Assembly (NCBI RefSeq): GCF_001483745.1
Contig: NZ_LQBL01000003.1
Span: 187,425-251,424, forward strand
From: Serinicoccus chungangensis
GTDB taxonomy: Bacteria > Actinomycetota > Actinomycetes > Actinomycetales > Dermatophilaceae
Length of the DNA: 64,000 nucleotides
Reading direction: 5' to 3'
The notes under the pieces were generated by a model that saw nothing but the letters and a program-made list of their open reading frames with translations, was not told the origin of the DNA and searched no databases. Made by a program: the position numbers and the translations under genes. Shown in pieces: positions 6,431 through 55,983 of this stretch; position 1 is the stretch's first letter; every line of letters starts with the position of its first letter.

Positions 6431-6490
6431 GGACGCCCAGTCTAGGACGTCCCGGGGGTCACCGGCGCGCCCCCAGAGCCACTCCGCCGG

Positions 6491-6521
6491 CCTGATCCCG
6501 CACCCAGGATGCGGGATCAGG
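6491..6521 (-). terminator. Intrinsic hairpin ending the P1 peptidase gene
   Basis: A perfect 12-bp stem, CCTGATCCCGCA (6491-6502) with TGCGGGATCAGG (6510-6521), encloses the 7-nt loop CCCAGGA. The stop codon of the P1 peptidase gene (complement of 6517-6519) lies inside the stem. There is no U-tract, as is common in actinobacterial terminators. Confidence 0.7.
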
Positions 6522-7641: not shown

Positions 7642-7653
7642 GCGCCTACCTTG

Positions 7654-41736: not shown

Positions 41737-42510
41737 TCAGAGCCACCCCACCCGGCCGGCGAGCGCGGCATACCCGACGAACGCGACGACGTCGAGCAGG
41801 GTGTGCGCCACGACGAGCGGCATGACCCGGCGGGTGCGGGTGTAGAACCACCCGAGGATGATGCCCATCGCGATGTTGCCGACGAACCCCCCGAAGCCCT
41901 GGTAGAGGTGGTAGGTGCCCCGCAGCACCGCCGACGTCAGGATGATCGTCCAGGTCGACCAGCCCGCCTGCGCCCACCGGGTGAAGAGGTAGCCGACGGC
42001 GATGACCTCCTCCACCACCGAGTTCTGGACCGCGGCGAGGACGAGCACCGGCACGGCCCACCACACGGAGGGCAGGTTGGCGGGGGCGACCGTGGTGTTG
42101 ACGCCGAGCTCGCGGGCCAGGAGGTAGAGGCCGAGTCCGGGTATGCCGATGACCGCCGCGAGCATCGTCCCCTGCGCGAGGTCGCGGACAGGTCGGGTTC
42201 GGTCGAGTCCGAGCAGGCGCCAGGGCCGGGCGACCTCTCGCCCGAGCAGGTGCAGGGCGAGCACGACCGGCACCAGCGCCAGCGCGATGCCGACGAGCTG
42301 GTAGGCGAGGTCGATCCACGGCTGGTCGGGGGCCGCGCTGGTGTTCATGCTGGTCGTCTGGGCCGCGAGGCCACCGGGCGCGGTCAGCTTGCGCGTGATG
42401 CTGAGCACCGACCACACCGCGGAGGCCCCGAGGCTCACCCCCAGGACGAGCAGCGTCTCGGTCAGCAGGCTGCGTCGGGCGAGGTCGGTCGGTGGAAGGC
42501 GGGGGTCCAC
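41737..42510 (-). CDS. CPBP family intramembrane metalloprotease
   Basis: A 257-residue multi-helix protein of the Abi/CPBP (Rce1-like) family. The first motif is EEVIAVGYLFTRWAQ near 165, with the paired Glu but without the usual FRG arginine position. The second is a His in GTYHLYQGFGGFVGNIAMG near 198, and the third is VVAHTLLDVVAFVGY near 235. The deviating first motif is common in an actinobacterial subgroup, so loss of activity is not implied. The start is GTG 42510, with a TAGCCT -10 box (complement of 42517-42522) 6 nt upstream. The substrate is unknown, and no bacteriocin genes are nearby. Confidence 0.88.
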   Translation of the reverse strand: MDPRLPPTDLARRSLLTETLLVLGVSLGASAVWSVLSITRKLTAPGGLAAQTTSMNTSAAPDQPWIDLAYQLVGIALALVPVVLALHLLGREVARPWRLLGLDRTRPVRDLAQGTMLAAVIGIPGLGLYLLARELGVNTTVAPANLPSVWWAVPVLVLAAVQNSVVEEVIAVGYLFTRWAQAGWSTWTIILTSAVLRGTYHLYQGFGGFVGNIAMGIILGWFYTRTRRVMPLVVAHTLLDVVAFVGYAALAGRVGWL

Positions 42511-42591
42511 CCCCTCAGGCTAGGTGCAGGGGCCCCGGTGCGAGGCCTCGGTATGCGGAAGCCTCACCTCCGCGATGCCGCGCGCCCCACC

Positions 42592-42607
42592 TCCGACGCA
42601 CGTCGGA
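42592..42607. other. Short perfect inverted repeat downstream of the acidic-tail gene
   Basis: TCCGACG (42592-42598) and CGTCGGA (42601-42607) form a perfect 7-bp palindrome around CA, in the 155-bp gap between the acidic-tail gene and the CPBP gene. The loop is too small for a classical terminator; it could be a protein-binding site. Nothing else stands out in this gap. Confidence 0.35.
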
Positions 42608-42665
42608 CTCCCTCATCTGCGTCATCAGGCGGGCCCCACCTCAAGCGGGTGCGGACGGACTCAGC

Positions 42666-43274
42666 TCAGTCGTCCCAGTCGTCGTCATCATCGTCGTCCC
42701 AGTCGTCGTCGTCCCAGTCGTCGTCGCACTCCTCCCACTCGTCGTCGTCCCAGCACATGACCGGTGAGGGCTGCACCGGCGCCGGCTGGGCGGGCGCGGG
42801 CTGAGCGGGCGCCGGCTGAGCAGGCGCGGGCTGAGCCGGAGCAGGCTGGGACTCCTGCGCCGCGCGGTCCGCCTCCTGCTGGGCCTTCTGGTCGGCCGCC
42901 GCCTGCTCCTCGGCCTTCTTCTCTGCCGCCTTCTTGTCTGCGGCCTTCTTCTCTGCGGCGGCCTCCTCCTCCGCGGCCTTCTCGGCTGCCGCCTCGTCCT
43001 CGGCCTGCTGTTCTGCGGCCTGGCGTGCCTGGGCGAACTCCGCGGACAACAGCGTCGTGCCTTGGTGGACCGCGCCCAGGAGGGCGACGCCTCGCACGTC
43101 CGGCCCAGCGGCCGACGGGGTCAGTGCGCCCGTGGTCGTCCCCTCGTCCGCCGCGAGCGCACCGGCGACGACGATGCCCTCGGTCTCCTGCGCGTCGGCA
43201 GCGGCGTCGATCCACAGCCAGCCGCCGGTGAGACCGATGAGGACGAGCGCGAGGGCAGAGGCGATCATCTTCAT
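42666..43274 (-). CDS. Anchored surface protein: Ala/Lys helix, Pro-Ala spacer, Trp-Asp-rich tail
   Basis: A 202-residue protein I cannot assign to a family. Residues 3-22 form a signal anchor (ALALVLIGLTGGWLWI). Residues 80-142 are an Ala/Glu/Lys-rich charged helix with KKAADKKAAEKKAEE. Residues 143-170 are PAPAQ repeats, a rigid extended spacer. The last 29 residues contain 22 Asp/Glu, 5 Trp and 2 Cys (174 and 183), with short WDDDD-type repeats. The layout reads as anchor, stalk and a strongly acidic aromatic tip outside the cell, which could bind cations or a basic or glycan partner; this is inference. AGGAAG precedes the ATG. The upstream operator matches the one before the glycosyltransferase operon. 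Confidence 0.75.
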   Translation of the reverse strand: MKMIASALALVLIGLTGGWLWIDAAADAQETEGIVVAGALAADEGTTTGALTPSAAGPDVRGVALLGAVHQGTTLLSAEFAQARQAAEQQAEDEAAAEKAAEEEAAAEKKAADKKAAEKKAEEQAAADQKAQQEADRAAQESQPAPAQPAPAQPAPAQPAPAQPAPVQPSPVMCWDDDEWEECDDDWDDDDWDDDDDDDWDD

Positions 43275-43308
43275 GCTCTGCAGTCTTCCTGCCAGGGAGG
43301 AGACAAGG

Positions 43309-43335
43309 GTGAGAGCATCATGAGAAGACTCTCAT
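43309..43335 (-). promoter_or_regulatory. Composite operator, copy 1 (before the acidic-tail gene)
   Basis: GTGAGA (43309-43314), ATGAGA (43320-43325) and TCTCAT (43330-43335): two direct half-sites 11 bp apart, plus an inverted half-site 10 bp on. The same set with identical spacing is at 51751-51777. It ends 35 bp before the start codon of the acidic-tail gene and overlaps the 3' end of the tandem-kinase gene. Eleven-bp direct repeats are typical of OmpR/PhoB-type regulators. Confidence 0.65.
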
Positions 43336-46184
43336 CCATGCCGAGCCTCGCTCTGCCACTGCTCCTCGGCCCAGGCGAGCACGACGTCCCGCCAGCGCGG
43401 CCGCAGGCAGTAGACCGCGACCAGGCGAGCCACCGTGGCCCGCCGGGCAAGAGCCAGACGACTCGCGGGCACGGACCCGGCCACCGCGACCTCTCCCACC
43501 GCCTCCCGCACCAGGTCGGCTGCCGACGCAGGCCAGAGGCCCTGGGCCTGCCGCAGTCCCGCGTGGACGTGCAGGTTGGCGAGGTCGAGGGCGGGTTCGG
43601 CACGGCATACCGTGTCCAGGTCGACGACCCCGACCCGCCGGCCGTCCCACAGCAGCTGGCCGTCGTGCAGGTCGCGGTGGGCGGCGACGAGGGTCACGTC
43701 CGGCGACCCGTCGAGCTGCGTCGCGACGCGGGCCAGCCGCTCGGGCCACGGCGTCCCGGTCAGCAGGTCGAGCGCACCCACCCGCTGCGCCCAGGTCCGC
43801 AGCACCTGCGCCTCGTCGGCAGGCGTGTGGGCCGCCAGCCCGGCCGGCGGCAGCTGCTGCCATCGCGTCCACCCGGCAGCCCAGGCGGCCCAGAGGTCCG
43901 ACCAGCTGCCGTCAGAGGCGAGGCGCTGCACCGGTATGCCGGGCAGCGTCCGGGTGAGCACCGTCTCGTCGGTGCTGCTGACGACGTCGGCGGCCACGAG
44001 GCCGGCGTCGCGGGCCACCGCCGCCCCTCGCGCCGAGGCGTCGACGAGCGCGGCCGCACGTCCGGGCCGCACGATCTTGAGGTAGCCGTCCGCCCGGTGC
44101 ACCACGGCCCGTCGCCCGGCCCGGTGCACCAGCAGACTGCCGGTGCGGGCCGCGGCCGCCAGCCCGGGCAGCCGCGGGTCCTCACCGTGCGGGAGGAGGG
44201 TGACCGCACCCCCGGGACTGATGGTGCCGGCCCGCAGCCGCCCACGCCCGTCGTCCCCCTCGATCGCCACGCGGGCCTGACCGTCACGCGCTCCCGCCGG
44301 CCAGGCCCGGCCGACAGTCACGGTGACCGCATCGTCGTCGCCGCTCTCGTCCTCGGCGCGCGCCCGGACCACCCGGGGCACCCGCCAGGACGGCCGGGAG
44401 GTGAGCGGCCCGGCGACGACAGCCGAGCCGCCCGGGTCAGCCTGCGCATGCTGGCCACCCGAGCCACCGGGGAGCAGCGTCCCCGCGAGGAGGTCGAGCG
44501 CCAGCTGCGCCACCTCCTCGGTCTGCTCGCGCCAGCCCGCGGCCTGCGAGCGCCAGGGCTCGGCGACCCGGGCGAGCAGGGCGGCGGACACCCACGCGCC
44601 AGGCAGGGGGGCCCGCCCGTAGCCGTCCACGAACGCCTCCCAGGCCGCCGCCCCGTGCCGGTGGTCGTGTCGGAGGGTGTGCCGGAGCTCGTCCCGCTGC
44701 TCGTGCCCGTACCGGTGGTCGTGCCGACGGGTGTGCCGGTGCTCGTCCCGCTGCTCGTGCCCGTGCCCGACAGCCGAGTCACCGACACCACCGGTCTCCG
44801 AGGACCGGCGAACCTCGTGCACGATCTGGGCGGCACGTACCGAGGCGAGGTCCAGCTCGACGGGCCCCCAGCAGGCCCGGTCCAGGTCGGTCAGCCGCAC
44901 CACGCCGTCGTCGCCGAGCAGGAACTGGTCCAGCGAGAGGTCGCCGTGGAGCAGGACGTGGCGCCCGTCCTCGGCGCCCGTCCGGCCCTCGTGGGAGAGC
45001 GGGTCGGGGGCCGGCTCCTGCTCCGGCAGCCCGGCGAGGGCGAGCCGCGCAGCGTGCGCCGCCTGCGGAGCGACGGCGTGCAGCAGCGCCACCGAGCGCC
45101 GGGCCGCGGCCAGGAGGTCGCCCCACCCACGCTCGGGCAGGTCCACCGCGACCGGCGGCGATGTCGCGTGCACCCGCGCCGCCAGCTCGCCGGCAGCCCG
45201 GACGGGCCCCAGGTCCGCCTGCGTCAGGTCGCTCCCCTCGACCCACGGCCACGCGCTCACCCGCCGCGACACCCGCACCCGAGGTGGCACAGAGCCCGGG
45301 TGGGGCTGCGGCCCGAGCTCACACGGCGCCACGACGGGCAGCCCCCGCTCGGCCAACGACCGGGCGACAGCCGACATCCGCTGGGCGTGCGGCTCCGCGG
45401 TGACGCGGACGACCTGCCCGCCCACCCGCACGACGAGCCGGCGCAGGGGGTTGTAGCGCAGCAGGACCAGGTCCGGCGAGGTGAGGTCGAGCCCGCTGCG
45501 GCGCAGTGGGCTGCCCAGCTCGGGGTCGGTCGCGATGCCACCCCAGACCAGCTCGGCGTCCCACTGCGGCAGGGGCAGGGAGCCGATGAGGGCGCCGTGC
45601 CCGTAGCGCTCGGCCCGGTCCCGCGCCTTGGCCGCCTTCGCCCGCGCCGGCCCGACCAGCGCCTGGACCCAGCCGAGGACCCGGCCGTCGGCCCCCAGGA
45701 GCGCGGCGGTGTGGCTCACCCCCGGCTTGGGCCGGACGCGCGTCACCCGCACCGGCGTGCGGAGCAGCCCGCTGAGGCGCTCGGGGTCGAGCAGCAGCTC
45801 GAGAACCGGGTCCGAGGAGACCGGGTCCGAAGAGACCGAGTTGGAAGGGACCGGGCCCGAAGAGACCGAGTTGGACATGACCGGGTCCGAGGAGACCGGG
45901 TCCGAGGTATGCCGCCCGCTCCCCCTGGTCTCCCCGTCCACCCGCGCGGGACCCCGGGGAGCCACCTCACCACGCCCCACCGACCCGTCCGCGTCCGCCC
46001 GACCATGACCCACCGACCCGTCCGCGTCCGCCCGACCAGGACCCACCGACCCGTCCGCGTCCGCCCGACCACGCCCCACCGACCCGTCCGCGTCCGCCCG
46101 ACCGCGCCCCACCGGCCGCGGGACGTCCCCGTCCTCGACGGCCGGCACGGGGCATCCACCGGCATACCACTGCCGCTCATCCAT
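43332..46184 (-). CDS. Tandem APH/choline-kinase-fold phosphotransferase with internal repeats
   Basis: A 950-residue protein with two aminoglycoside-phosphotransferase-like kinase domains. Domain 1 has the catalytic loop LLHGDLSLDQFLL near 408 and DLDRACWGP. Domain 2 has GYLKIVRPGR (ATP-binding Lys) near 690, AHRDLHDGQLLWD near 833 and VVDLDTVCRAEPALDLANL. Both catalytic Asp residues are kept. Three in-frame repeat tracts are present: GRADADGSVGR at 11 residues x4 (about 26-70), SSDPV-like pentamers x7 (about 93-127) and an 18-residue His-rich pair (about 471-511). Its ATG overlaps the ABC gene by 8 bp. It probably phosphorylates a sugar, polyol or lipid-linked glycan; antibiotic resistance is unlikely given the operon. 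Confidence 0.85.
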   Translation of the reverse strand: MDERQWYAGGCPVPAVEDGDVPRPVGRGRADADGSVGRGRADADGSVGPGRADADGSVGHGRADADGSVGRGEVAPRGPARVDGETRGSGRHTSDPVSSDPVMSNSVSSGPVPSNSVSSDPVSSDPVLELLLDPERLSGLLRTPVRVTRVRPKPGVSHTAALLGADGRVLGWVQALVGPARAKAAKARDRAERYGHGALIGSLPLPQWDAELVWGGIATDPELGSPLRRSGLDLTSPDLVLLRYNPLRRLVVRVGGQVVRVTAEPHAQRMSAVARSLAERGLPVVAPCELGPQPHPGSVPPRVRVSRRVSAWPWVEGSDLTQADLGPVRAAGELAARVHATSPPVAVDLPERGWGDLLAAARRSVALLHAVAPQAAHAARLALAGLPEQEPAPDPLSHEGRTGAEDGRHVLLHGDLSLDQFLLGDDGVVRLTDLDRACWGPVELDLASVRAAQIVHEVRRSSETGGVGDSAVGHGHEQRDEHRHTRRHDHRYGHEQRDELRHTLRHDHRHGAAAWEAFVDGYGRAPLPGAWVSAALLARVAEPWRSQAAGWREQTEEVAQLALDLLAGTLLPGGSGGQHAQADPGGSAVVAGPLTSRPSWRVPRVVRARAEDESGDDDAVTVTVGRAWPAGARDGQARVAIEGDDGRGRLRAGTISPGGAVTLLPHGEDPRLPGLAAAARTGSLLVHRAGRRAVVHRADGYLKIVRPGRAAALVDASARGAAVARDAGLVAADVVSSTDETVLTRTLPGIPVQRLASDGSWSDLWAAWAAGWTRWQQLPPAGLAAHTPADEAQVLRTWAQRVGALDLLTGTPWPERLARVATQLDGSPDVTLVAAHRDLHDGQLLWDGRRVGVVDLDTVCRAEPALDLANLHVHAGLRQAQGLWPASAADLVREAVGEVAVAGSVPASRLALARRATVARLVAVYCLRPRWRDVVLAWAEEQWQSEARHG

Positions 46185-47955
46185 GGCTCTCCTCCAGCAC
46201 TCCGTCGAGCGGCGCGTCCTGGGGCCTCCCGGTCCAGGTCACCCGTCCTTGCTCCAGCACCACGACCCGGTCGGCGCCGCGGGCGACGTCGAGGTCGTGG
46301 GTGATCATCACGCTCGTGCGTCCGCGGCTCAGCTCGGTGATGGCGTCGCCCACGAGGGTGACGTTGTCCGGGTCGAGCCCGGTGGTCGGCTCGTCGAGCA
46401 GCAGCACGGGGGCGTCCCGCAGGAACGCGCGCGCCAGGGAGATCCGCTGACGCTGCCCGCCGGAGAGGCTGCTGCCCCGCTCGCTGACCTCCGTCTGCAG
46501 ACCCTCGGGGAGCCCGTCGGTGAACTCGGTCACCCGGGCGAGCCGGGCCGCGCGCAGCACCTGGTGGTCGCTGGCCTCGGGCCGCCCCTGCCGGATGTTG
46601 TCCTCGATGGTCCCGGTGAAGAGCACGGCGTCCTGCTGCACGAGCGCGACCTGGCTGCGCAGGTCGCGCAGGTCCAGCTCGCGCAGGTCGACCCCGTCCA
46701 GCCGCACGCTGCCCGAGCCGGGGTCGAGCAGGCGCAGGAGCAGCGCGGCCACCGTCGACTTGCCCGAGCCCGAGGGCCCGACGATCGCGACCCGCTCGCC
46801 CGGCTCGATCCGCAGGTCCACCCCCCGCAGCACGGGGAGGCCGGGCACGAACTCGAGGTGCACGTCACGCAGCTCCACCGCGCCCCGCACGACCCCGAGC
46901 CGCACCGGGTCGGCCGGCGAGACGATGTCCGGCCGCTCGTCGAGCAGGTCCGCGACCCGCTCCCCCGAGGCGCTGGCGCGCGCGATGCGGCCGGTGTACT
47001 TCGCCAGGTCGCGCAGCGGCTTCATCGAGGTCTTGAGGTAGGTCAGGAAGATCACCATGTCCCCGGGCGTCATCGCGCCCTGCAGCACCCGCGCGCCGCC
47101 CAGCAGCAGCACGGCCGCGGTCGCGACGCCGACGAGGACGTCGGTGCGCCGCTCCAGCGCGGCCGCGAGCCGGCGCGCGACGACGCCGTCCTTGAGCGAG
47201 CGGTCGTTGGAGCCCTGGAAGGTGGTCGAGCGGTCGCGCTCCATCCCGTAGGCCTGGACGTGCGTCATCCCGGTCAGCGTCTCCTGGGCGACGTTGGCCA
47301 GCTCGCCCTCGCTGCGGCGCGTCTTGCGCGAGGCGTGGGTGATCTTGCCCGTCGACAGCCGGGAGAAGAGGGCGAAGACGAGGATCGCCACGAGCACGAT
47401 GAGCGCCAGCACCGGGTCCAGCCAGGTCATCACCCCGAGCATCGCGACCAGGGTGAAGACATTGACGACGAGCGGCATACCGGCGGTGACGGCGACCTCC
47501 TGCAGCCGGCCGACGTCCGCGACCAGCCGCTGGACGACGTCCCCGGAGCGCGCCCGGCCGTGGTAGCTGCGCGACAGGCTCTGGACGTGGTCGAAGACCG
47601 CCGCCCGCAGCCGCGTCGCGACCCGGCTGCCCCCCAGCGCGAAGGCCACCGTCGCCCCGTAGTTGCAGACCGCGCGCAGCCCGATGATGGCGATGGTGCC
47701 GAGCCCGCACGCCACGAGGAGCTGGACCGAGGCCTGCGGCCCCGGCTCGGCGAGGTCGGCACCCAGGCTGCGGGTGAGGGCGTCGATGACGAGCTTGGTC
47801 GGCCACGGCTCGAGGACCCGGAAGACCACCTCGAGCAGCAGCAGCACGCCGCCCCCCGCGAGCAGGGCCCGCTGCCCGTCGAGGTGCGGCAGCACGAGCC
47901 GCAGGGTGCGCCGCAGCGGCGAGGTCGCCGGGGCCGTCCCCGGGTCCGCCGCCAT
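46177..47955 (-). CDS. ABC exporter, fused permease-ATPase (MsbA/lipid-glycan type)
   Basis: A 592-residue half-transporter that works as a homodimer. Six helices (about 25-310) are followed by the ATPase: Walker A GPSGSGKSTV near 390, Q-loop VQQDAVLFTG, signature [16 protein letters not shown] near 495, Walker B VLLLDEPTTGLD and switch His in MITHDLDVA. It resembles exporters of lipids, lipid-linked sugars or peptides. ATG 47955 overlaps the upstream glycosyltransferase stop (TGATG), so the start further upstream in the open frame is rejected. It sits between glycosyltransferases and the tandem kinase, which suggests that it exports the product they build. Confidence 0.9.
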   Translation of the reverse strand: MAADPGTAPATSPLRRTLRLVLPHLDGQRALLAGGGVLLLLEVVFRVLEPWPTKLVIDALTRSLGADLAEPGPQASVQLLVACGLGTIAIIGLRAVCNYGATVAFALGGSRVATRLRAAVFDHVQSLSRSYHGRARSGDVVQRLVADVGRLQEVAVTAGMPLVVNVFTLVAMLGVMTWLDPVLALIVLVAILVFALFSRLSTGKITHASRKTRRSEGELANVAQETLTGMTHVQAYGMERDRSTTFQGSNDRSLKDGVVARRLAAALERRTDVLVGVATAAVLLLGGARVLQGAMTPGDMVIFLTYLKTSMKPLRDLAKYTGRIARASASGERVADLLDERPDIVSPADPVRLGVVRGAVELRDVHLEFVPGLPVLRGVDLRIEPGERVAIVGPSGSGKSTVAALLLRLLDPGSGSVRLDGVDLRELDLRDLRSQVALVQQDAVLFTGTIEDNIRQGRPEASDHQVLRAARLARVTEFTDGLPEGLQTEVSERGSSLSGGQRQRISLARAFLRDAPVLLLDEPTTGLDPDNVTLVGDAITELSRGRTSVMITHDLDVARGADRVVVLEQGRVTWTGRPQDAPLDGVLEESHG

Positions 47956-49199
47956 CACCGTCCTCCGGCGGCCGGGACGGAGGTATGCGGGGACGCCGGC
48001 GGCGCGGTCGACGTCACCGGCGCGAGGGTCGCGTCGAGGACGTGCTCCCACGAGTGCTCGCGCTCCATGAGGCGGCGGGCGGCGGCGCCCAGGGCCCGCG
48101 CGGCGTCCGGGTCGTCGACGAGCGCGTCGACGGCGGCGGCGAGCGCGACCGGGTCCGACGGCGGCACGAGCACCCCGGTGACACCGTCCTGCACCACCGC
48201 CGGGATCTGGCCGATGCGGGAGGCCACCACGGGCAGGGCGGCCGCGCCGTACTCGTAGACCTTGAGCGGGGAGAAGTAGTGGTCGTCGCTGGCCGGGTAG
48301 GGAGCGACCGCGACGAGGGCACCCTCCAGCGCGGCGGGGACCTCCTCGGGCGCCACGGCCCCGGTCAGCTCGACGGCCAGCCCGTGCCGGGCGGCGGCCT
48401 GCTCGACCGCCTCCCGCTGGGGCCCGTCGCCGACGATCCGTAGCCGCCAGGGACGCCGGGCCATCGCGGCCGCCTCGAGCAGGTCCTCGACGCCGTGCCA
48501 GGGCTTGAGCGTCCCGACGAAGACGACCACCGGGTCACCGTCCAGGTCGGGGGTGACCGCGCGGATGCGGCGAGTGTTCACCCCGTTGGGCACGACGACC
48601 ACCCGTGCGGCACCAGCACCCTGCACGGCACCACCCTCGTCGGCCCCGGTGCGCTCACGCACCCACGCGGCCACCCGCTCGCTCACGCAGGCGACGACGT
48701 CGGCGGCACCGACCTGGGCGCGCAGGGCGTCGACGCTGCCGGCCTCGTCGACGAGGACGCGGTGGCGCCGCTGCTCGTCGATGAGCGGGGCGTTGACCTC
48801 CAGGACGGTCCGGACCCCACCGCCCAGCCCGCGCCGGGCGAGGTGCAGCACGCCGGAGAAGAGCGAGTACCGCTCGTAGACGACGTCGGGGGCGGCGGCC
48901 ACCACCCGCCGGCCGATCTCCGCCGCGGCCTGGCGCTGGGCCACCTCGCGCCGGGCGGCGGCGCCCGGGTCGTCGCCACCCGGGCCCGAGCCGACGCGGC
49001 CGACCGGCACGTGGTGCACGACGAGGTCCGCGAGGTCGGCGGGGACGTGGTCGACGTCACCGAGGCGGACGGCATACACCTCGACCTCGGCGCCGCGCCG
49101 GCGCCAGGCGCGGACGATCTCCTGGATGTGGACGCTGGCGCCCTTGGTGCCGAAGACGGGGATGCCGGGGTCGGCGCAGACGTAGGCGACGCGGGTCAT
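47955..49199 (-). CDS. Glycosyltransferase family 4 (third enzyme of the cluster)
   Basis: A 414-residue GT-B glycosyltransferase. The N-terminal Rossmann part starts MTRVAYVCADPGIPVFGTKG, with the acceptor loop GASVHIQEIVRAWRRRGAEV. The C-terminal donor domain has VVFVGTLKPWHGVEDLLEAA near 228 and the EX7E-like region YFSPLKVYEYGAAALPVVAS near 320. The tail (about 395-414) is Pro/Ser/Thr-rich. The start ATG 49199 overlaps the stop of the previous glycosyltransferase gene by 4 bp (ATGA), and its own stop overlaps the ABC gene start. Donor and acceptor are unknown. Confidence 0.9.
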   Translation of the reverse strand: MTRVAYVCADPGIPVFGTKGASVHIQEIVRAWRRRGAEVEVYAVRLGDVDHVPADLADLVVHHVPVGRVGSGPGGDDPGAAARREVAQRQAAAEIGRRVVAAAPDVVYERYSLFSGVLHLARRGLGGGVRTVLEVNAPLIDEQRRHRVLVDEAGSVDALRAQVGAADVVACVSERVAAWVRERTGADEGGAVQGAGAARVVVVPNGVNTRRIRAVTPDLDGDPVVVFVGTLKPWHGVEDLLEAAAMARRPWRLRIVGDGPQREAVEQAAARHGLAVELTGAVAPEEVPAALEGALVAVAPYPASDDHYFSPLKVYEYGAAALPVVASRIGQIPAVVQDGVTGVLVPPSDPVALAAAVDALVDDPDAARALGAAARRLMEREHSWEHVLDATLAPVTSTAPPASPHTSVPAAGGR

Positions 49200-50437
49200 C
49201 GGGTGGCTCCTGCGGTCACGGCGGCGAGGCGCGCCGCCTGGGTGGTGGTGTCGTAGTCGCGCTCGACGAGCGCGCGGGCGGCCCGGGCGACCTCGACGCG
49301 TGGCCAGGAGGGGTCGGCCACCTGGCGCAGCGCGCCGGCGACCCGGTCGGCGAGGCCGGCGGGGTCGCTGGCCAGGAGGATCCCGGTGGCCGGGGTCGTG
49401 TCGTCGCCCGGGCGGACCGCCTCGGGGATGCCGGTGACGTCGGTCGCCACGCACGGCACCCCGCTGGCCATCGCCTCGAGCAGCACCGTGGGCAGCCCGT
49501 CGGCGTTGCCGTCGGCGCCGACCACGCACGGGGCGACGAGGACGTCGGCCCGGTCCAGCTCGGCGACGAGCTCGCTCTGGCTGCGCGACCCGAGGAGGGT
49601 GACGACGTCGTCGACCCCGGTGCGCTCGACCTGCGCCGCGAGCTCGGCGGCGCGCTCGCCCTCGCCGACGATCCGGACGTCGAGCGGCACCCCCTCGGCT
49701 CGGAGGGCGGCGACCGCGTCGACGAGGTGGTCGAAGCCCTTCTTCTCCACGATGCGCCCGACGGCCAGGACCCGCAGCGTGTCGCCGACCGGCCGCGGGT
49801 CGCGGTAGTCGAAGCGGCCCAGCTCCAGGCCGTTGCGCACGAGGGCGACCCGGTCGGCCAGCCCGGGGTCGACCTCCTCCACGATGAAGCGTCGGTTGTA
49901 GTCGCTGATGGCGATGACGGCGGACGCGCGGGCGAGCACCTCGCGCAGCACCACCCGGTCGACGTCCTCGTGGAAGAGGTCCTTGGCGTGCGTGGTGACG
50001 GTGAACGGTATGCCGGTGAGCGCGCTCGCGATCGCGGTGCACCACGACGCCATGCTGGCGAAGTGGACGTGCACCCGCGTGATGCCGTCGCGCCGCAGGC
50101 GCAGCGCCAGGTCGACGCCCTGGGCGACGTCGGAGGGGTCCAGGCGCACCAGCAGCGGCATGAGCGCGCCGAACCGGGCGCCGAAGTCGGGCAGCTCGGC
50201 GTGGGCCTGGGCGAAGACCTCCCACTCGGCCGACAGCTTGTGCGCCCGGGGCAGGTGGGTGACCGGCGCCTGCACCTGCGCCAGCTGGGGGTGGAAGCGC
50301 GAGTCGGTGGTCGGGCGCAGGGCGTAAATGGCCAGGTCGTCGCCGGCGGCCTCGCGGGCCAGGATCTCGGTGACGACGAAGGTCTCGGAGAAGCGCGGGT
50401 AGACCTTGAGGACGTAGGCGGTGCGGTCAGACGGCAA
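49196..50437 (-). CDS. Glycosyltransferase family 4 (second enzyme of the cluster), TTG start
   Basis: A 413-residue GT-B enzyme. The N-terminus reads AYVLKVYPRFSETFVVTEIL, a form seen in exopolysaccharide glycosyltransferases. VHFASMASWCTAIASALTG is near 130, and the donor-domain motifs are VGRIVEKKGFDHLVDAV near 235 and DGLPTVLLEAMASGVPCVAT near 315 (EX7E). No ATG or GTG fits the N-terminus. The proposed TTG at 50437 lies 6 nt after GGAAGGA and 11 bp before the stop of the upstream gene ends, consistent with translational coupling. Donor and acceptor are unknown. Confidence 0.88.
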   Translation of the reverse strand: MPSDRTAYVLKVYPRFSETFVVTEILAREAAGDDLAIYALRPTTDSRFHPQLAQVQAPVTHLPRAHKLSAEWEVFAQAHAELPDFGARFGALMPLLVRLDPSDVAQGVDLALRLRRDGITRVHVHFASMASWCTAIASALTGIPFTVTTHAKDLFHEDVDRVVLREVLARASAVIAISDYNRRFIVEEVDPGLADRVALVRNGLELGRFDYRDPRPVGDTLRVLAVGRIVEKKGFDHLVDAVAALRAEGVPLDVRIVGEGERAAELAAQVERTGVDDVVTLLGSRSQSELVAELDRADVLVAPCVVGADGNADGLPTVLLEAMASGVPCVATDVTGIPEAVRPGDDTTPATGILLASDPAGLADRVAGALRQVADPSWPRVEVARAARALVERDYDTTTQAARLAAVTAGATR

Positions 50438-51680
50438 CGGGGAGTCCTTCCACGCGGGCGGGGGCGAACGACGGGACCGGCGCGAGGGCCGGCGAGGTGC
50501 GGACCAGCTCGGCCGCGGAGGTGGCCACGGTGCGCAGGCCCCCCAGGTCGAGGGCGCCGCGGTCCACGCGACGGGCCACCGCGTCCGCCCACCAGCGGCT
50601 GATCGCGGTCTCGGTGAGGTCGCCCTCGCGCAGCAGGTCGGCGGCACCGACCCGGGCGAGCGCGGCGGCCCGGATGAGCTGCTCGGTGCGCGGCCGCTCC
50701 CTCGGCACGAGCAGGGCGGGGACGTCGGTGGCCAGCGTCTCGGCGACGGTGTTGTAGCCGGCCATGGACACCGAGGCCGCGGCCCGGCGGATGAGCCCGG
50801 CGGCGTCGTGCACGCTGCGGACGACCTGGGTGCCGCGGACGGCCTCGCGCTCGACCGACCGGTGGTCGGCGTCGCTCATCTGCGGGCCGGTGACGAGCAG
50901 GTGGCGGTGCCCGGCGGGCACCCGGGCGCGGGCCGCCGCGAGGCACAGCCGGGTGCCGTCGCTGCCCCCGCCGGCGGTGGTGACGAGGTAGGGCCGGTCC
51001 GGCTCGACGTCGGTCGGCTCCTCGGCCCGCCCGTGGGCGAGGAACCCCTGGTAGCGCACGAGCGGGGCGAGCTCGGGCGGCAGCTCGCCGGAGCGGCGCA
51101 GGTCGTGCACGGCCGGGTCGCCGTAGACCCAGATCTCGTCGTAGATCTGCGCCACCAGGTCGGCGGGGGTCTGCCGCCACTCCGACTCCACCGCCTCGGG
51201 GGCGTCGAGGACGTCGCGCAGGCCCAGGACGAAGCGCGTCTGCGGCAGCTCGCGGCGCATGGCCTGCAGGCCGGCGAGCAGCTCACCCCCGACGCCGAGG
51301 GCGTGCCGGTCGACGACGACGAGGTCGGGACGGAAGGCGAGCCCGGTGGCGCGGACGATCTCCCCGCGCACCGACAGCACGGCGTCCATGCCGAGATCGA
51401 GGTGACGTGGGCCGTAGCCGCGGCGCCCGGCCGTCTTGCCGATGGCCGGGAGCGTGACGACGTCGAAGCCGGCCGGCAGGCTGCGGGCGGCGGCCCCGGC
51501 GACCCCGTTGAGCAGCAGCCCGGTGACCGGGGAACCGGTGAGGACCGGCAGCCGCTGGGAGAGGGTGTGCGCGAGGGCGCGGTTGCGCCGGAAGTGACCC
51601 AGACCCTGGGAGTCGTGGGAGTAGAACAGGGCGCGCAGCGGGGTGCCGCTGCCGGGGACGTGACTGGTGCGGTGGTCCAT
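50427..51680 (-). CDS. Predicted glycosyltransferase, COG4671/GT28-like (first enzyme of the cluster)
   Basis: A 417-residue protein with the COG4671 signature at the N-terminus (FYSHDSQGLGHFRRNRALA, near 17-35) and a Glyco_tran_28_C-like second half: TTAGGGSDGTRLCLAA near 235 and SVSMAGYNTVAETLATDVPALLVPRER (shown in part) near 312. These proteins are related to MurG, but their substrates are unknown. GAGAGGA precedes the ATG at 51680. It is the first gene of the glycosyltransferase-exporter-kinase operon and has the composite operator at 51751-51777 in front. Confidence 0.87.
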   Translation of the reverse strand: MDHRTSHVPGSGTPLRALFYSHDSQGLGHFRRNRALAHTLSQRLPVLTGSPVTGLLLNGVAGAAARSLPAGFDVVTLPAIGKTAGRRGYGPRHLDLGMDAVLSVRGEIVRATGLAFRPDLVVVDRHALGVGGELLAGLQAMRRELPQTRFVLGLRDVLDAPEAVESEWRQTPADLVAQIYDEIWVYGDPAVHDLRRSGELPPELAPLVRYQGFLAHGRAEEPTDVEPDRPYLVTTAGGGSDGTRLCLAAARARVPAGHRHLLVTGPQMSDADHRSVEREAVRGTQVVRSVHDAAGLIRRAAASVSMAGYNTVAETLATDVPALLVPRERPRTEQLIRAAALARVGAADLLREGDLTETAISRWWADAVARRVDRGALDLGGLRTVATSAAELVRTSPALAPVPSFAPARVEGLPVAV

Positions 51681-51750
51681 GTCGTCCTCTCCCGCGCCGA
51701 CCGGGTGCCGGTGCGTGGAGACGAGTGAACACGGGTGGGATGAGGGGTGG

Positions 51751-51777
51751 ATGACACATCCATGAGATTGCTCTCAT
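51751..51777 (-). promoter_or_regulatory. Composite operator, copy 2 (before the glycosyltransferase operon)
   Basis: ATGACA (51751-51756), ATGAGA (51762-51767) and TCTCAT (51772-51777). Direct half-sites are 11 bp apart, and the last pair forms the inverted repeat ATGAGA-N4-TCTCAT, exactly as at 43309-43335. It lies 70 bp before the first glycosyltransferase start and 67 bp after the response-regulator stop. No good TANNNT box is visible just downstream, which would suit an activator-dependent promoter. Confidence 0.65.
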
Positions 51778-51843
51778 GCACGGTGACCAGCCCAGACGCC
51801 ACGCGACCAGCCCGGACGCCACGGACCGGCTCAGGCGCCGGCG

Positions 51844-52518
51844 TCAGCGCTCGAAGCGGTAGCCGACCCCCCGGACGGTGCTGATGCGCTCGGCGCCGAC
51901 CTTGGCGCGCAGGTAGCGGATGTAGACGTCGACGACGTTGGAGCTGCCGGTGACCTCGAAGCCCCACACCCGGTCGAGCAGCTGGTCCCGGCTGAGCACC
52001 TGGCCGGCATGGTCCATGAGCTCGCGGGCCAGGGTGAACTCCCGCGCGGACAGCTCGACCGGCTCGTCGTCCACGTGGACGGTCCGGGCCGGGATGTCCA
52101 GCCGCACGCCGCCCACCTCGAGGACGTCCTCCGTGCGCCCCCCGGCCATCGCCTCGGCGTGCTGGCGCAGCCGCAGCTTGACCCGGGCGCGCAGCTCCTC
52201 GACCCGGAAGGGCTTGGCGAGGTAGTCCTCGGCCCCGTTCTCCAGCCCGTGCACGGTGTCCTCGACCGAGTCGCGGGCGGTGCACATGATGACCGGCACC
52301 GGCTCGTCCATGGTCCGCAGCATGCGCAGGACGGTGAAGCCGTCCATCTTCGGCAGCCCCACGTCGAGCACCACGAGGTCGACCTGTCCCCCGCTGGCCG
52401 CCTCGAGGGCGGCGATGCCGTCGGTGACGACGGTGGTCCGGTGGCCGTCGGCCCGCAGCCCCCGGTCGACGACCCGGGCGATCCCCTCCTCGTCCTCCGC
52501 GATCAGGATGTGCGCCAT
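51844..52518 (-). CDS. OmpR/PhoB-family response regulator
   Basis: A 224-residue two-domain regulator. The receiver has acidic pocket residues Glu8/Asp9, the phospho-acceptor Asp52 in LVVLDVGLPKMDGF, Thr in MCTARD near 80 and Lys in YLAKPF near 103. The C-terminal winged helix has LSAREFTLARELMDHAGQVL and a recognition helix around SSNVVDVYIRYLRAKVG. The closest general type is MprA/TcrA of actinobacteria. The ATG at 52518 has a TAGCCT -10 box (complement of 52525-52530) 6 nt upstream, so it can be transcribed apart from the kinase gene 9 bp upstream. It is the likely binder of the two composite operators. Confidence 0.94.
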   Translation of the reverse strand: MAHILIAEDEEGIARVVDRGLRADGHRTTVVTDGIAALEAASGGQVDLVVLDVGLPKMDGFTVLRMLRTMDEPVPVIMCTARDSVEDTVHGLENGAEDYLAKPFRVEELRARVKLRLRQHAEAMAGGRTEDVLEVGGVRLDIPARTVHVDDEPVELSAREFTLARELMDHAGQVLSRDQLLDRVWGFEVTGSSNVVDVYIRYLRAKVGAERISTVRGVGYRFER

Positions 52519-52527
52519 GGGGGCAGG

Positions 52528-54063
52528 CTACCCGGCGGCGGTGCGGGCGGGCTCACCCTCGGCGGCCGCGGCGACGCGGTGCGCGGGCTGGTCGGCGGGG
52601 TCGACCGGGATCCACATGGTGAAGCGCGACCCCAGCCCCTCGACCGACTCCACCCCGACCGCGCCGCCGTGCGCCTCGGCGATCGCCTGGACGATGGCCA
52701 GGCCCAGGCCGCTGCCGTCGACCTGGGCGGCGGCCTCGGCCCGGCCGAAGCGCTCGAAGACCCGCTCCTGCTCGCTCTCGGGTATGCCGGTGCCGTGGTC
52801 GGAGACGCTCAGCGCCAGGTAGCGGGGCGCGGGTCGGGCGCCGAAGTCCCGGGCCCGCCGCACCTGGGGGTCCTCCCCCTCGACCCACGCCGTCGCCAGC
52901 TCCACCGGTGACCCCTCGTCGCTGAACTTCACCGCGTTGGCCGCCAGCTGGACCACGGCCTGGATGAGCCGCTGGCGGTCGAGGACGACCGGGCCCTCGG
53001 CGTGCGCGGCCAGCTGCCACTGGCGCTGACCCAGCGAGGTGATGCGCTCCATGCACTCGACGGCCAGCTCGGTGACATCGGTGGCGCCCGGCCGCAGGAA
53101 GTCCTGACGCTGCGCGCGCGCCAGCATGAGCAGGTCGTCGACCAGCCGCTGCATCCGGTCGACCTCGTCGAGCATGAGGGTGCGGGTTGCGCTGACGTCC
53201 GCGGGGTCCTCGGGCCGCAGCAGCTCGGCGTTGCCCCGCAGGATCGTCAGCGGCGTCCGCAGCTCGTGGGCCGCGTCGTCGAGGAACTGGCGCTGCATCC
53301 GGACGCCGTCCTCCAGCCGGTCCAGCATGGCGTTGAAGCGGTGGGCCAGGTCGACGATGTCGGTCTCGCCGGACACCTCGACCCGGCGGGAGAGGTCCTC
53401 CGCGCTGATCTGCGCGGTGGCGTCCTGGAGCTCGCGCAGCGGGCGCAGTAGGCGGCCGAGGACGACGTTGGCGAGCGCCCCGGCGACGAGCAGGGAGGCC
53501 AGGCCGACGCCGGCATACGTCCAGACCCGGCGCCAGATCTCACCGGCGAGCGTCCCGGAGTCGATGGCGACGACGAAGGTGCCCAGCCGCTCCTCGTCGG
53601 GCAGCCGGACGTCGGCCATGATGACCGAGAGCGTCGTCCCCTGCGTGCTCACGGTGTCGATGACCGCCCGACCGGGTTCGAGCGGGGTGCTCCGGATGAG
53701 CGCGAGGACGTCGGGGTGGTCGACCTGGAAGTCGCGCTCCCCAGGGCTCTGGAAACGCGGCTGTCCGTCCAGCAACGCCAGAAAGGCCTCGTTGGAGCTG
53801 GCGATCGAGGTCTCGATGAAGGAGAAGAAGAGCGCGTCGGTCTCGGTGAAGGGCTCCCCGTCCCGCAGCGGGCCGGACTGCGCGAGCGCCGAGACCTCCT
53901 GGATCTCCTGCTCGAGCTCCTCCCTGACCCGCTCGTCGAGGGAGCGGAACTGCACGGCGAAGGACAGCACCCCGGTGAGCGCGATGCCCAGCGCCATCAT
54001 GCTCACCATCATGACGAGCAGCCGGCGGTGGACGCTCCAGCCGCGGCGGACGGAGTCGTTCAC
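52528..54063 (-). CDS. Sensor histidine kinase (MprB-like)
   Basis: A 511-residue membrane kinase. Helix 1 (about 13-37) and helix 2 (about 178-200) frame an extracytoplasmic sensor of about 140 residues with no recognised fold. A HAMP linker follows (LLRPLRELQDATAQISAEDL). The H-box is DDAAHELRTPLTILRGN, the N-box AANAVKFS, the G1 box SDHGTGIP, F FERFGRAE and G2 GSGLGLAIV, so all catalytic parts are present. The GTG start at 54063 overlaps the DUF2891 stop (GTGA). It is paired with the downstream response regulator gene. The signal is unknown. Confidence 0.94.
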   Translation of the reverse strand: MNDSVRRGWSVHRRLLVMMVSMMALGIALTGVLSFAVQFRSLDERVREELEQEIQEVSALAQSGPLRDGEPFTETDALFFSFIETSIASSNEAFLALLDGQPRFQSPGERDFQVDHPDVLALIRSTPLEPGRAVIDTVSTQGTTLSVIMADVRLPDEERLGTFVVAIDSGTLAGEIWRRVWTYAGVGLASLLVAGALANVVLGRLLRPLRELQDATAQISAEDLSRRVEVSGETDIVDLAHRFNAMLDRLEDGVRMQRQFLDDAAHELRTPLTILRGNAELLRPEDPADVSATRTLMLDEVDRMQRLVDDLLMLARAQRQDFLRPGATDVTELAVECMERITSLGQRQWQLAAHAEGPVVLDRQRLIQAVVQLAANAVKFSDEGSPVELATAWVEGEDPQVRRARDFGARPAPRYLALSVSDHGTGIPESEQERVFERFGRAEAAAQVDGSGLGLAIVQAIAEAHGGAVGVESVEGLGSRFTMWIPVDPADQPAHRVAAAAEGEPARTAAG

Positions 54064-55166
54064 GGCCCCGCCCCGTCGGCGAGGAGCGCGAAGGACACCA
54101 GCCAGTGGGTGGCCATGAAGTCGCCGTCGGTGATCTGCTCCAGCACCGCGCCCTCCTGCTCGTCGGCGGCCTGCCGCACGCGGTCGGCGGCAGGCTCCGC
54201 CACCCAGGGTGCCAGAGTCCGCAGCGCCCACGCGCGCGACAGCGCGAGGCCGAGCAGGTGGGCGCCCTGGCCGTGGGTCGGGTCGAGCACGAGCGGCGGC
54301 TCGAGCAGGTGGGCGTGCGCCCCCTCGCCGAGCCCGGGCAGGGCGCGCGCGAGCCAGTCGGGGCCGTCGGCCCGCCCGAGCACCGCGGTCATGAGCAGGG
54401 CCTCGGTCAGCGCCGGGGAGAGGAAGTCCGAGCCACCTGGCTCGTCCTCGGTCGCCAGCGGGCCGTCGTCGCCGAACCAGCGGACGGCCGCCTCCTCGCA
54501 CGCCCGCACGACGTCCTCGCGCCCCAGGCGCCGGTAGGCGTCGCGCAGCAGGAGGAGGGCGAAGGCGTCGTTCTGGTGCTTGCCGTGGCGCACCGGGTAG
54601 GCCTGCCGCGGCAGGTGCTCCACCACCCGGTCGGCGAGCAGGTCGGCCAGCGGGGCCAGCGCCCGCGCCCACGTGCCCGCCTCGGGGGCGCTCGTCCCCT
54701 CGACCGCGGCGGACGCGTCGAACCGCTCGGATGGCGCGGCGAGGTTCGCGGCCGCGGCGGCCAGCTGCGCGGCCCACGCCCAGCCGTAGGGACGCTCGAA
54801 CCCGGGCCGGGCCCGCAGGTAGTCGACCTCGACCGCGAGGTGCTCCTCGGTGAGCCGCTGCGACAGCAGCGCCGTCGTGGCGGCGCGCTCCTGCGCCCCG
54901 AGCGCGTCGGCATACCTCGTGAGGAGGGTGACGAGGGACCACTGCATGTGCACGCAGGAGTGCCAGTCGAGCGCGCCGTGGAAGGCGGGGTGCAGGCTCT
55001 CCGGTGTCACGTCGGTGTCGTCCGGCCCGAGGACGACGTGGCCCGGGGCCCAGGGGTATGCCGTGCCGATCACCTCGCGCGCGATGCGGCTCCACGCGCG
55101 GGCGTGCGGGTGCGGGTGTGCCGTCGGGTCCGGGCGGCTGTCGCGGCGTGGTGCGTCGGGGGTCAC
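54060..55166 (-). CDS. DUF2891 family protein
   Basis: A 368-residue soluble protein of the DUF2891 family, function unknown. Conserved-looking parts are HPAFHGALDWHSCVHMQWSL near 60-80, FERPYGWAWAAQL near 120, VRHGKHQNDAFALLLLRDAY near 190, SDFLSPALTEALLM near 245 and GDFMATHWLVSFAL at the end; the Trp/His pattern and helical hairpins suggest an alpha/alpha-barrel like those of glycan-active enzymes (inference). GTG 55166 is preferred: an ATG at 55193 would overlap the start of the divergent gene, and TAGTAA lies 7 nt before the GTG. It heads the two-component operon, coupled to the kinase by a GTGA overlap. Confidence 0.82.
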   Translation of the reverse strand: MTPDAPRRDSRPDPTAHPHPHARAWSRIAREVIGTAYPWAPGHVVLGPDDTDVTPESLHPAFHGALDWHSCVHMQWSLVTLLTRYADALGAQERAATTALLSQRLTEEHLAVEVDYLRARPGFERPYGWAWAAQLAAAAANLAAPSERFDASAAVEGTSAPEAGTWARALAPLADLLADRVVEHLPRQAYPVRHGKHQNDAFALLLLRDAYRRLGREDVVRACEEAAVRWFGDDGPLATEDEPGGSDFLSPALTEALLMTAVLGRADGPDWLARALPGLGEGAHAHLLEPPLVLDPTHGQGAHLLGLALSRAWALRTLAPWVAEPAADRVRQAADEQEGAVLEQITDGDFMATHWLVSFALLADGAGP

Positions 55167-55191
55167 GCGACCATTACTACACTCGCGCCTC

Positions 55192-55983
55192 ATGACGGCT
55201 GACGGGCGGCACTACTTCACGGCGCTGGGCGAGGGCAGGTATGCGCCGACCGAGCACGTGCAGGGCGCCTGGTCGCCGGACGAGCAGCACGTCGCGCCGG
55301 TCATCGGCCTGCTGCTGCACGCGCTGGAGCACGAGCACCCGCGCGAGGACCTGCAGTGGGCGCGGCTGGGCGTGGACATCCTGGGCTTCATCCGGCGCGA
55401 GGAGATGCAGGTCACCACCCGGGTGCTGCGACCCGGGCGGACCATCGAGCTGCTCGAGGCCAGCGTGGAGATCGGGGGCCGGGACGCCGTGCGGCTCACC
55501 GCCTGGCGGCTCATGAGCAGCGACACCGCAGCCGTGGCCGGCCAGGAGCACGCGCAGATGCCCGCGCCGTCGGAGCTGGAGCCGTGGCACGGCATGGACC
55601 ACTGGGACGGCGGCTTCATCGCCAGCCTGGACTTCCGCTCGGTCCCCGGGTCGCGGGCCGGTCGCGGCCGGACCTGGGTGCGCACCGACGTGGCCCTCGT
55701 CGGCGGCCGCGACGACGAGCAGGCCTCGGCGCTGGCGTCGTGGGTGGGGCTGCTCGACACCGCCAACGGCACGGCCGGGCGGGAGGCGCCGCACGACTGG
55801 CTCTTCCCCAACGTCGACCTCACCCTGCACCTGCACCGCGTGCCGGAGGGCCCCTGGGTGGGGCTGGACACCCGGGTTTCGTGGGGCCCGACGGGCATCG
55901 GGCAGACCGCCTCGGTGGTGCACGACGAGCAGGGGCCGGTCGGCACCCTCGTGCAGGCCCTCACCCTGCGGCCGGCCGGCTGA
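55192..55983 (+). CDS. Acyl-CoA thioesterase family protein (double hotdog)
   Basis: A 263-residue TesB-like protein of the thioesterase family common in actinobacteria. Features are HYFTALGEGRYAPTEHVQGAW at the start, a first hotdog with LGVDILGFIRREEMQVTTRVLRPGR (shown in part) near 65, and a second with WLFPNVDLTLHLHRVPEGPWVG near 200 and TRVSWGPTGIGQT, where a catalytic-type Asp/Thr/Gln set is expected. Substrate chain length is unknown. TACACT (55178-55183) lies 8 nt before the ATG, so the transcript is probably leaderless. It shares a very short divergent promoter region with the DUF2891 gene. Confidence 0.87.
   Translation: MTADGRHYFTALGEGRYAPTEHVQGAWSPDEQHVAPVIGLLLHALEHEHPREDLQWARLGVDILGFIRREEMQVTTRVLRPGRTIELLEASVEIGGRDAVRLTAWRLMSSDTAAVAGQEHAQMPAPSELEPWHGMDHWDGGFIASLDFRSVPGSRAGRGRTWVRTDVALVGGRDDEQASALASWVGLLDTANGTAGREAPHDWLFPNVDLTLHLHRVPEGPWVGLDTRVSWGPTGIGQTASVVHDEQGPVGTLVQALTLRPAG

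Follow-up and report, generated by a model that had tools for sequence, protein, structure and literature searches.

A predicted two-component regulon links a glycosyltransferase–exporter–kinase cassette to a poly-aspartate-tailed membrane protein in Serinicoccus chungangensis and its relatives

Here, we analyze a nine-gene block in a 64,000-nucleotide stretch of the Serinicoccus chungangensis genome (the window; contig NZ_LQBL01000003.1, positions 187,425 to 251,424; genome of 3,556,988 bases in 33 contigs). The block lies at about 42666..55166 of the window, and all of its genes are on the minus strand. It consists of two modules and a bystander gene. Module 1 is a cassette encoding, in order, a GT28-like glycosyltransferase (GT), two GT4 enzymes, an ABC exporter, and one or two APH-fold kinase domains. 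Module 2 encodes a histidine kinase (HK), a response regulator (RR), and a membrane-anchored protein with a poly-Asp/Trp tail, called here the acid-tail protein. From comparative sequence analysis, we regard it as moderately probable that the block belongs to a dedicated regulon for envelope stress, whose product would be an exported phosphorylated oligosaccharide or glycolipid and in which the acid-tail protein would either sense together with the HK or provide feedback to it.

The predicted cassette is transmitted as a unit. A scan of the GTDB species collection yielded at least 577 relatives, of which we retained the 80 most similar in GT28; one plasmid locus brought the set to 81 loci, which, given how they were chosen, are not a random sample. 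The order GT28, GT4b, GT4c, ABC, and one or two APH matches, all on one strand, occurs in 69/69 loci whose downstream sequence spans 8 kb or more, and the genes of the 12 shorter loci, outside that count, follow the same order as far as they fit. So do 25 of 26 relatives' stretches around APH matches, the exception (L056) being a short contig that starts inside the block. Five pairs of loci are near-copies in which the same genomes appear twice (L066/L031, L067/L034, L068/L043, L069/L055, and L104/L050); L069, despite its Acidobacteria label, duplicates the contig of G005, a genome from the genus of the window, and L066 and L067, both Serinicoccus, are the nearest named relatives by locus. Of the 31 genus genomes, 27 have a GT28 match, which in 25 is strong (E 1e-116 or better). 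Across an even sample of the phylum the distribution is patchy, with a match at E 1e-20 in 18 of 396 genomes.

Members also exist outside the Actinobacteria, namely in a Candidatus Methanoperedens archaeon (L144), Sphingorhabdus (L145), Paracoccus aestuarii (L162), a Xenococcaceae cyanobacterium (L142, with one APH domain), and a Pirellulaceae planctomycete metagenome-assembled genome (L140), in which a sulfotransferase is fused to two APH stretches. The GTs and ABC exporters of these five correspond one-to-one to those of the window at 35-46% identity (the Pirellulaceae GT4c is not included), and each compared protein matches its own counterpart far better than it matches the window's other GT4 or another ABC protein. 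Cross-phylum APH matches are weak, at 25-35% identity, and mostly partial. Thus, the initial annotation, which named three GTs, an ABC exporter, and a double-APH protein as a set, identified a group of genes conserved far beyond close relatives, and its core genes are not scattered through unrelated contexts.

The window's cassette has the functions, the order, and the single strand that define the group. Its first gene (50427..51680), which the initial annotation placed in COG4671, encodes a GT28/GT1-like GT-B enzyme with the motif YSHDSQGLGHxRRN; it belongs to the GT28 (MurG) family by Glyco_tran_28_C (34.8 bits versus a cut-off of 22) and falls outside the murG equivalog (32 versus 250). 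By Pfam and by one-to-one cross-phylum matching, GT4b (49196..50437, likely starting at TTG 50437) and GT4c (47955..49199) follow. The next gene (46177..47955, likely starting at ATG 47955) encodes an MsbA/Sav1866/ABCB-type half-transporter with ABC membrane and ATPase domains, which scores below the MsbA lipid A exporter model TIGR02203 (383.8 versus 602 bits). Last comes a 950-amino-acid tandem kinase (43332..46184) that has no Pfam match at E 0.1 and only below-cut-off NCBIfam matches (LxmK, 4.3e-5); its relatives in other phyla match Pfam APH. Both APH-like domains noticed earlier keep their active sites (HGDLSLDQ..DLD and HRDLHDGQ..DLD): H, G, D, Q, and D are invariant in 38 aligned rows of the first domain, APHa, as are the catalytic H, D, Q, D, and D in 43 rows of the second, APHb. 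Fold plus HxD and DxD motifs make the protein an APH-fold small-molecule kinase, the fold coming from the second half only (AF2 mean pLDDT 95.3). The best Foldseek match to APHb is the glucosamine kinase 6hwj (E 2.9e-9), and its nearest neighbors are sugar and antibiotic kinases, with maltokinase further down; by VIA Z an antibiotic kinase is closest, with many rows tied. N-terminal RADADGSVG repeats (~45970-46110) and an internal His-rich stretch (~44650-44770) of the kinase correspond to gaps or much shorter segments in five aligned relatives.

Module 2 begins with an HK (52528..54063, likely starting at GTG 54063) that carries HAMP, HisKA, and HATPase_c domains and an acidic extracytoplasmic domain. 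Together with the OmpR-family RR (51844..52518), a receiver-Trans_reg_C protein, it forms an OmpR/PhoB-type two-component system (TCS). The best NCBIfam match of the RR is CseB (185.6 bits versus a cut-off of 350), and the PhoP model gives 121.2 versus 336; the pair falls outside the PhoQ/PhoP equivalogs, and the HK is below every cut-off among the 25 families listed of 78 that match. HK or RR matches are found near the cassette in 34 of 69 loci, in several layouts, and at least two of these are of another family: the TCSs of Paracoccus (L162) and Xenococcaceae (L142) were considered as orthologs and rejected, at 37% and 34% identity and outside the RR clade. That clade comprises 49 RRs, contributed by cassette loci and by four TCS loci detached from it, on one side of a branch with support 97/96 and present in 98% of 200 bootstrap trees, apart from eight paralogs of the S. 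chungangensis genome; the tree includes paralogs from that genome only and leaves out the RRs of L184-L191. Among 58 relatives, an RR ortholog (E 1e-60) occurs in 27 of 28 genomes with an APH match versus 3 of 30 others (Fisher 4e-12, uncorrected for phylogeny), and the single genome with an APH match and no ortholog, G020, is 75% complete. We read 12 TCS loci detached from the cassette, four reached via the tail codon pattern and eight via the TCS. An acid-tail gene adjoins all four of the former (L170, L171, L172, and L177) and sits beside four of the latter (L186, L187, L190, and L191). These comparisons establish, at the level of predicted genes, that in Actinobacteria one orthologous TCS, in many genomes together with a poly-Asp-tailed anchored protein, co-occurs with the cassette.

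The acid-tail protein (42666..43274) has a transmembrane anchor, a Pro/Ala linker, and a WDDDDWDDDD-type tail. Outside the genus its sequence is hardly alignable, whereas the architecture (one N-terminal transmembrane segment, a linker rich in Pro, Ala, and Ser, and the tail) and the tail composition recur, as in WDDDDWDDDDWDDDDWDDD (Kocuria, L072), VDDDDWDDDDDWDDDD (Microbacterium, L123), and EDDDDEDQEDDDEDDD (Brevibacterium, L128). A protein conserved in this manner would evade ordinary homology searches. A six-frame scan of 107 loci (2.04 Mb), with limits tuned over three earlier scans, found exactly one such gene in each of 33 loci (31 distinct after near-copies), always within about 4 kb of the cassette or the TCS. 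The scan missed the L123 gene, which other scans detected, and a looser version also returned one unrelated long protein (L107, 4577). Rescanning 28 TCS loci lacking an acid-tail gene under relaxed limits revealed none, its three matches (L042, L075, and L141) being without the architecture. We also looked for an acidic stretch fused to the HK and found none among 32 HKs. In the S. chungangensis genome, the codon pattern for DDWDD is confined to the acid-tail gene; in several genus genomes, it also occurs elsewhere, without an acid-tail gene (L173, L175, L176, L180, L181, and L183). The evidence supports the early suggestion that the acid-tail protein belongs to the system.

One conserved motif, the predicted RR-binding site, precedes the cassette and, in many genomes, the acid-tail gene, even where the two are far apart. 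Upstream of GT28 it reads ATGAGA-N4-TCTCAY-N7-YTCAY-N7-CTCAY, placing TCA every 11 bp, which is the spacing of OmpR-type sites; 60 of the 68 triple TCA-11 arrays in the scanned loci fall within the 360 nt upstream of GT28 genes. The 26-bp core, ATGAGA-N4-TCTCAY-N7-TCA, occurs perfectly only twice in the 3.56 Mb genome, both times on the minus strand: before GT28 (51752..51777, ATGAGAGCAATCTCATGGATGTGTCA) and before the acid-tail gene (43310..43335, ATGAGAGTCTTCTCATGATGCTCTCA). Across the genus, 26 of 31 genomes have at least one site with no more than one mismatch, versus 0 in 31 for a reversed-pattern control. Six genomes carry the cassette apart from the TCS and acid-tail gene (G006, G008, G010, G015, G019, and G024), and in each a site precedes both modules, the acid-tail site of G015 with one mismatch. 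Five otherwise unexplained perfect sites in the genus were read. Two of them, in G014 (L193) and G001 (L194), have a previously unseen acid-tail gene just downstream, and a third, in G023 (L204), has one that an earlier scan had hinted at. In other families, 18 of 18 genomes have a site with at most one mismatch to a slightly changed pattern (control, 0 in 18); a nineteenth genome (L084) was outside that search. Unlinked sites there lead to an HK and an acid-tail gene in four genera: Nostocoides (L210) and Janibacter (L211) and, with an RR as well, Brachybacterium (L226) and Zhihengliuella (L234). In an Arthrobacter (L231), such a site leads to a TCS that has no acid-tail gene.

A position weight matrix (PWM) gave 96 matches at 20 bits in 2.0 Mb, versus none in each of three Markov controls and none for the reversed PWM. 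Eighty lie at 76 of 104 GT28 upstream regions and 14 at acid-tail genes (of 31). The other two precede a UDP-glucose dehydrogenase gene (L084) and a second ABC exporter gene (L119). The GT28 count is not independent because it includes recovery of the 55 GT28 sites used for training; the matches at acid-tail, UDP-glucose dehydrogenase, and ABC genes are independent. With the RR clade and its co-occurrence with the cassette, the motif strongly indicates the two-component control that the initial annotation proposed. The motif also precedes a ~170-amino-acid secreted protein with VxGNxx repeats in G008 (L199), G013 (L200), G010 (L201), and G027 (L196), which is probably a further regulon member.

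The nine same-direction genes bear out the first reading by Pfam and architecture, as does most of the junction coupling described there, with overlap or 9-nt spacing at six of eight junctions. Two real gaps exist, of 163 nt between RR and GT28 and of 57 nt between the APH and acid-tail genes, and each carries a motif copy, the second overlapping the end of the APH gene. These motif-bearing gaps argue against a single nine-gene unit; the block probably comprises three or more predicted transcription units rather than one operon. Consensus searches of 42300-55500 returned no sigma-70 promoters or intrinsic terminators. Several kb separate RR from HK in L041 and GT28 from RR in L037, which indicates that the block is undergoing rearrangement within the genus.

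The notion is that the phosphorylated RR would bind the motif and switch on the cassette and the acid-tail gene. The GT28-like and two GT4 enzymes would then assemble a short oligosaccharide, perhaps attached to a carrier lipid, the two kinases would phosphorylate sugar hydroxyls, and the MsbA/ABCB-type exporter would carry the product across the membrane. The acid-tail protein would act outside the cytoplasm as co-sensor or feedback partner of the HK. Because the tail and the sensor domain are both strongly acidic (net charge of the window's HK domain about -14, with borders defined by hydropathy), the signal may be cationic, that is, divalent cations or cationic peptides. In keeping with this scheme, HK sensor domains with an acid-tail partner are more acidic (mean -13.8, n=12) than those without (-5.7, n=13; p 1.2e-4; by genus means, 6 versus 6, p 0.004).

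Several observations weigh against this scheme. The charge contrast between HK sensors comes from a post hoc comparison in which 27 of 33 HKs were parsable. Four of the eight detached TCSs reached via the TCS have no acid-tail gene beside them (L184, L185, L188, and L189, with L188 cut close to the RR), nor, in the stretches examined, do Actinomyces-type TCSs or the Arthrobacter RR-HK type. No scored site precedes 28 of 104 GT28 genes, including all non-Actinobacteria in the set (L134, L140, L142, L144, L145, and L162), L135, whose phylum is not named, same-order L052 and L053, Rothia, and several Microbacterium and Arthrobacter; the regulation is therefore lineage-restricted. Likewise, scored sites are missing at 17 of the 31 acid-tail genes. 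Two perfect genus sites have no acid-tail gene, one with nothing recognized (L195, G019) and one before a secreted repeat protein (L196, G027). Four one-mismatch genus sites, namely the only such site in S. chungangensis itself (L197) and L198, L202, and L203, have no recognized target. In other families, none of the known parts is seen at 7 of the 30 site loci read (L205, L206, L208, L217, L229, L232, and L233). Finally, the GT28 structural model is closest, among the matches listed, to the natural-product GTs CalG1, OleD, and GtfD. MurG is not among the best 50, which excludes nothing, and the structure gives a lipid acceptor no favor.

A serious competitor, somewhat less probable in our judgment, is that the acid-tail protein is an effector: a surface polyanion binding cations, cationic peptides, or glycan, or else a glycan acceptor, co-regulated only via the same stress response. 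Such a role fits a tail conserved in composition and not in sequence. It also fits the gene's separate motif site, present in the window and in most same-genus loci with the gene, and the gene's position after the cassette on the same strand in several lineages. However, the gene stays beside the TCS when the cassette is elsewhere, and in G043, which has no APH match, it lies directly upstream of the HK gene (L186).

We find it rather unlikely, but credible, that the cassette yields an exopolysaccharide or oligosaccharide that is exported without any lipid anchor, for which the APH-fold enzymes would be metabolic sugar kinases feeding precursors. The glucosamine kinase and maltokinase matches of APHb fit this view, and the archaeal member would make a bacterial glycerolipid acceptor unlikely. 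A precedent by analogy is the Sinorhizobium meliloti msbA2 operon (acyltransferase, two GTs, and MsbA2), which is ChvI-activated and proposed to make and export an undefined polysaccharide (PMC3687685, PMC12239276). It resembles the cassette in joining GTs to an MsbA-type exporter under TCS control, that of ExoS/ChvI there and a predicted one here, and differs in having a putative acyltransferase first, only two GTs, and no APH kinase named. Against an exopolysaccharide, no polymerase or initiating transferase seems to recur in the core or flanking genes scanned, and the kinase domains are fused together and, once, to a sulfotransferase, which suggests decoration.

An improbable reading is that the cassette product is a glycosylated small molecule resembling an antibiotic, in which case APH would confer self-resistance and ABC would serve for efflux. 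The GT28 model and the VIA Z ranking of APHb point that way, but genes for building a scaffold do not recur in the flanks scanned, and the same set exists in an archaeon, a cyanobacterium, and alphaproteobacteria. That the nine genes are chance neighbors without common function is hardly conceivable: only DUF2891 behaves as a bystander, and for the core, TCS, and acid-tail genes the 69/69 synteny, the one RR clade, and the motif common to distant loci contradict it.

If the co-sensor scheme is right, its logic would be that of PhoQ/PhoP and MgrB placed over surface-glycan modification and built from unrelated parts. PhoQ has an acidic sensor surface, and the output of PhoQ/PhoP is surface modification. 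LPS core assembly likewise employs GTs, heptose kinases of kinase-like fold, and an MsbA-type flippase. The cassette also has GTs, putative sugar kinases of kinase-like fold, and an MsbA-type exporter; unlike LPS core assembly, its kinases are an APH-fold tandem, and it occurs in Gram-positive bacteria and an archaeon. In enterobacteria, the feedback peptide MgrB is a small membrane protein in the PhoQ/PhoP regulon that acts back on the sensor (PMC2789325). Here, too, a TCS has a small membrane protein in its predicted regulon, for which feedback on the HK is proposed. The acid-tail protein differs from MgrB (47 amino acids) in its length of ~140-250 amino acids and its poly-Asp/Trp tail, and the system differs from PhoQ/PhoP in its Gram-positive envelope and in having one GT/ABC/kinase cassette as main target. 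GraS of Staphylococcus aureus belongs to a TCS for cationic-peptide resistance in which an extracellular acidic residue is reported to matter (PMC10581149); GraS is an intramembrane-sensing HK, and the residue is within the HK itself.

Among flanking genes, DUF2891 (54060..55193, minus strand; PF11199, 303.7 bits; PDB relative 8ieu), which the initial annotation counted as a component, is probably just a neighbor. In the stretches examined, only 11 of the 26 loci from the same genus or order have it adjoining the block (L031-L041, with the copies L066 and L067), and no match lies next to TCS loci that are detached. The G022 genome has no match to the cassette or the TCS and retains DUF2891 with a short acid-tail match ~0.3 kb away (L174), an arrangement that loss of the intervening genes would produce. 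UDP-glucose dehydrogenase occurs near the cassette in 19 of 80 loci (L084, with its motif site, among them), which speaks for the proposed pathway; besides TCS genes, it alone among the families listed recurs strongly in the flanks, in 13-14 of 60 downstream and 2-3 of 52 upstream, a scan that omits 7 of 67 downstream and 16 of 68 upstream genes as HK or RR by position. L119 carries an additional ABC exporter gene upstream of the cassette (6346-9123), which is preceded by a separate motif site and encodes a protein with a long acidic N-terminal segment; in L077 and L085, such an additional gene lies just upstream of GT28. In the Xenococcaceae locus, an aquaporin-family gene (L142, 9129-9851) overlaps the GT28 gene start, a possible osmotic link. 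Alphaproteobacterial plasmids (L163, L164, and L165) carry a GT28-GT4-GT4 trio in the same order with a different tail, made up either of histidine phosphatase, GT, and polysaccharide deacetylase genes next to genes for an ABC importer or of a gene for a different ABC protein.

Each part belongs to a known kind; we know of no precedent for the combination, the motif, or the acid-tail partner. Searches of the open-licence literature gave no description of a pathway with the full set, as first surmised, none of the GT28-GT4-GT4-ABC-APH set, and no paper on COG4671. What was a gene block becomes a predicted regulon in which a named DNA site is joined to its likely regulator, its likely pair of sensors, and a single target pathway. 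Similar layouts occur in free-living genera such as Arthrobacter, Kocuria, Microbacterium, and Brevibacterium. The cassette's gene order is the same even in an archaeon and a cyanobacterium, suggestive of a surface or exported glycan with broad utility. We speculate, tentatively, that an undescribed class of co-sensors, single-pass proteins whose extracytoplasmic poly-Asp/Trp tails sense cations or cationic peptides together with an acidic HK, controls an ancient, horizontally shared phospho-oligosaccharide-lipid cassette. If so, the cassette product would be a counterpart of LPS-core decoration outside Gram-negative bacteria.

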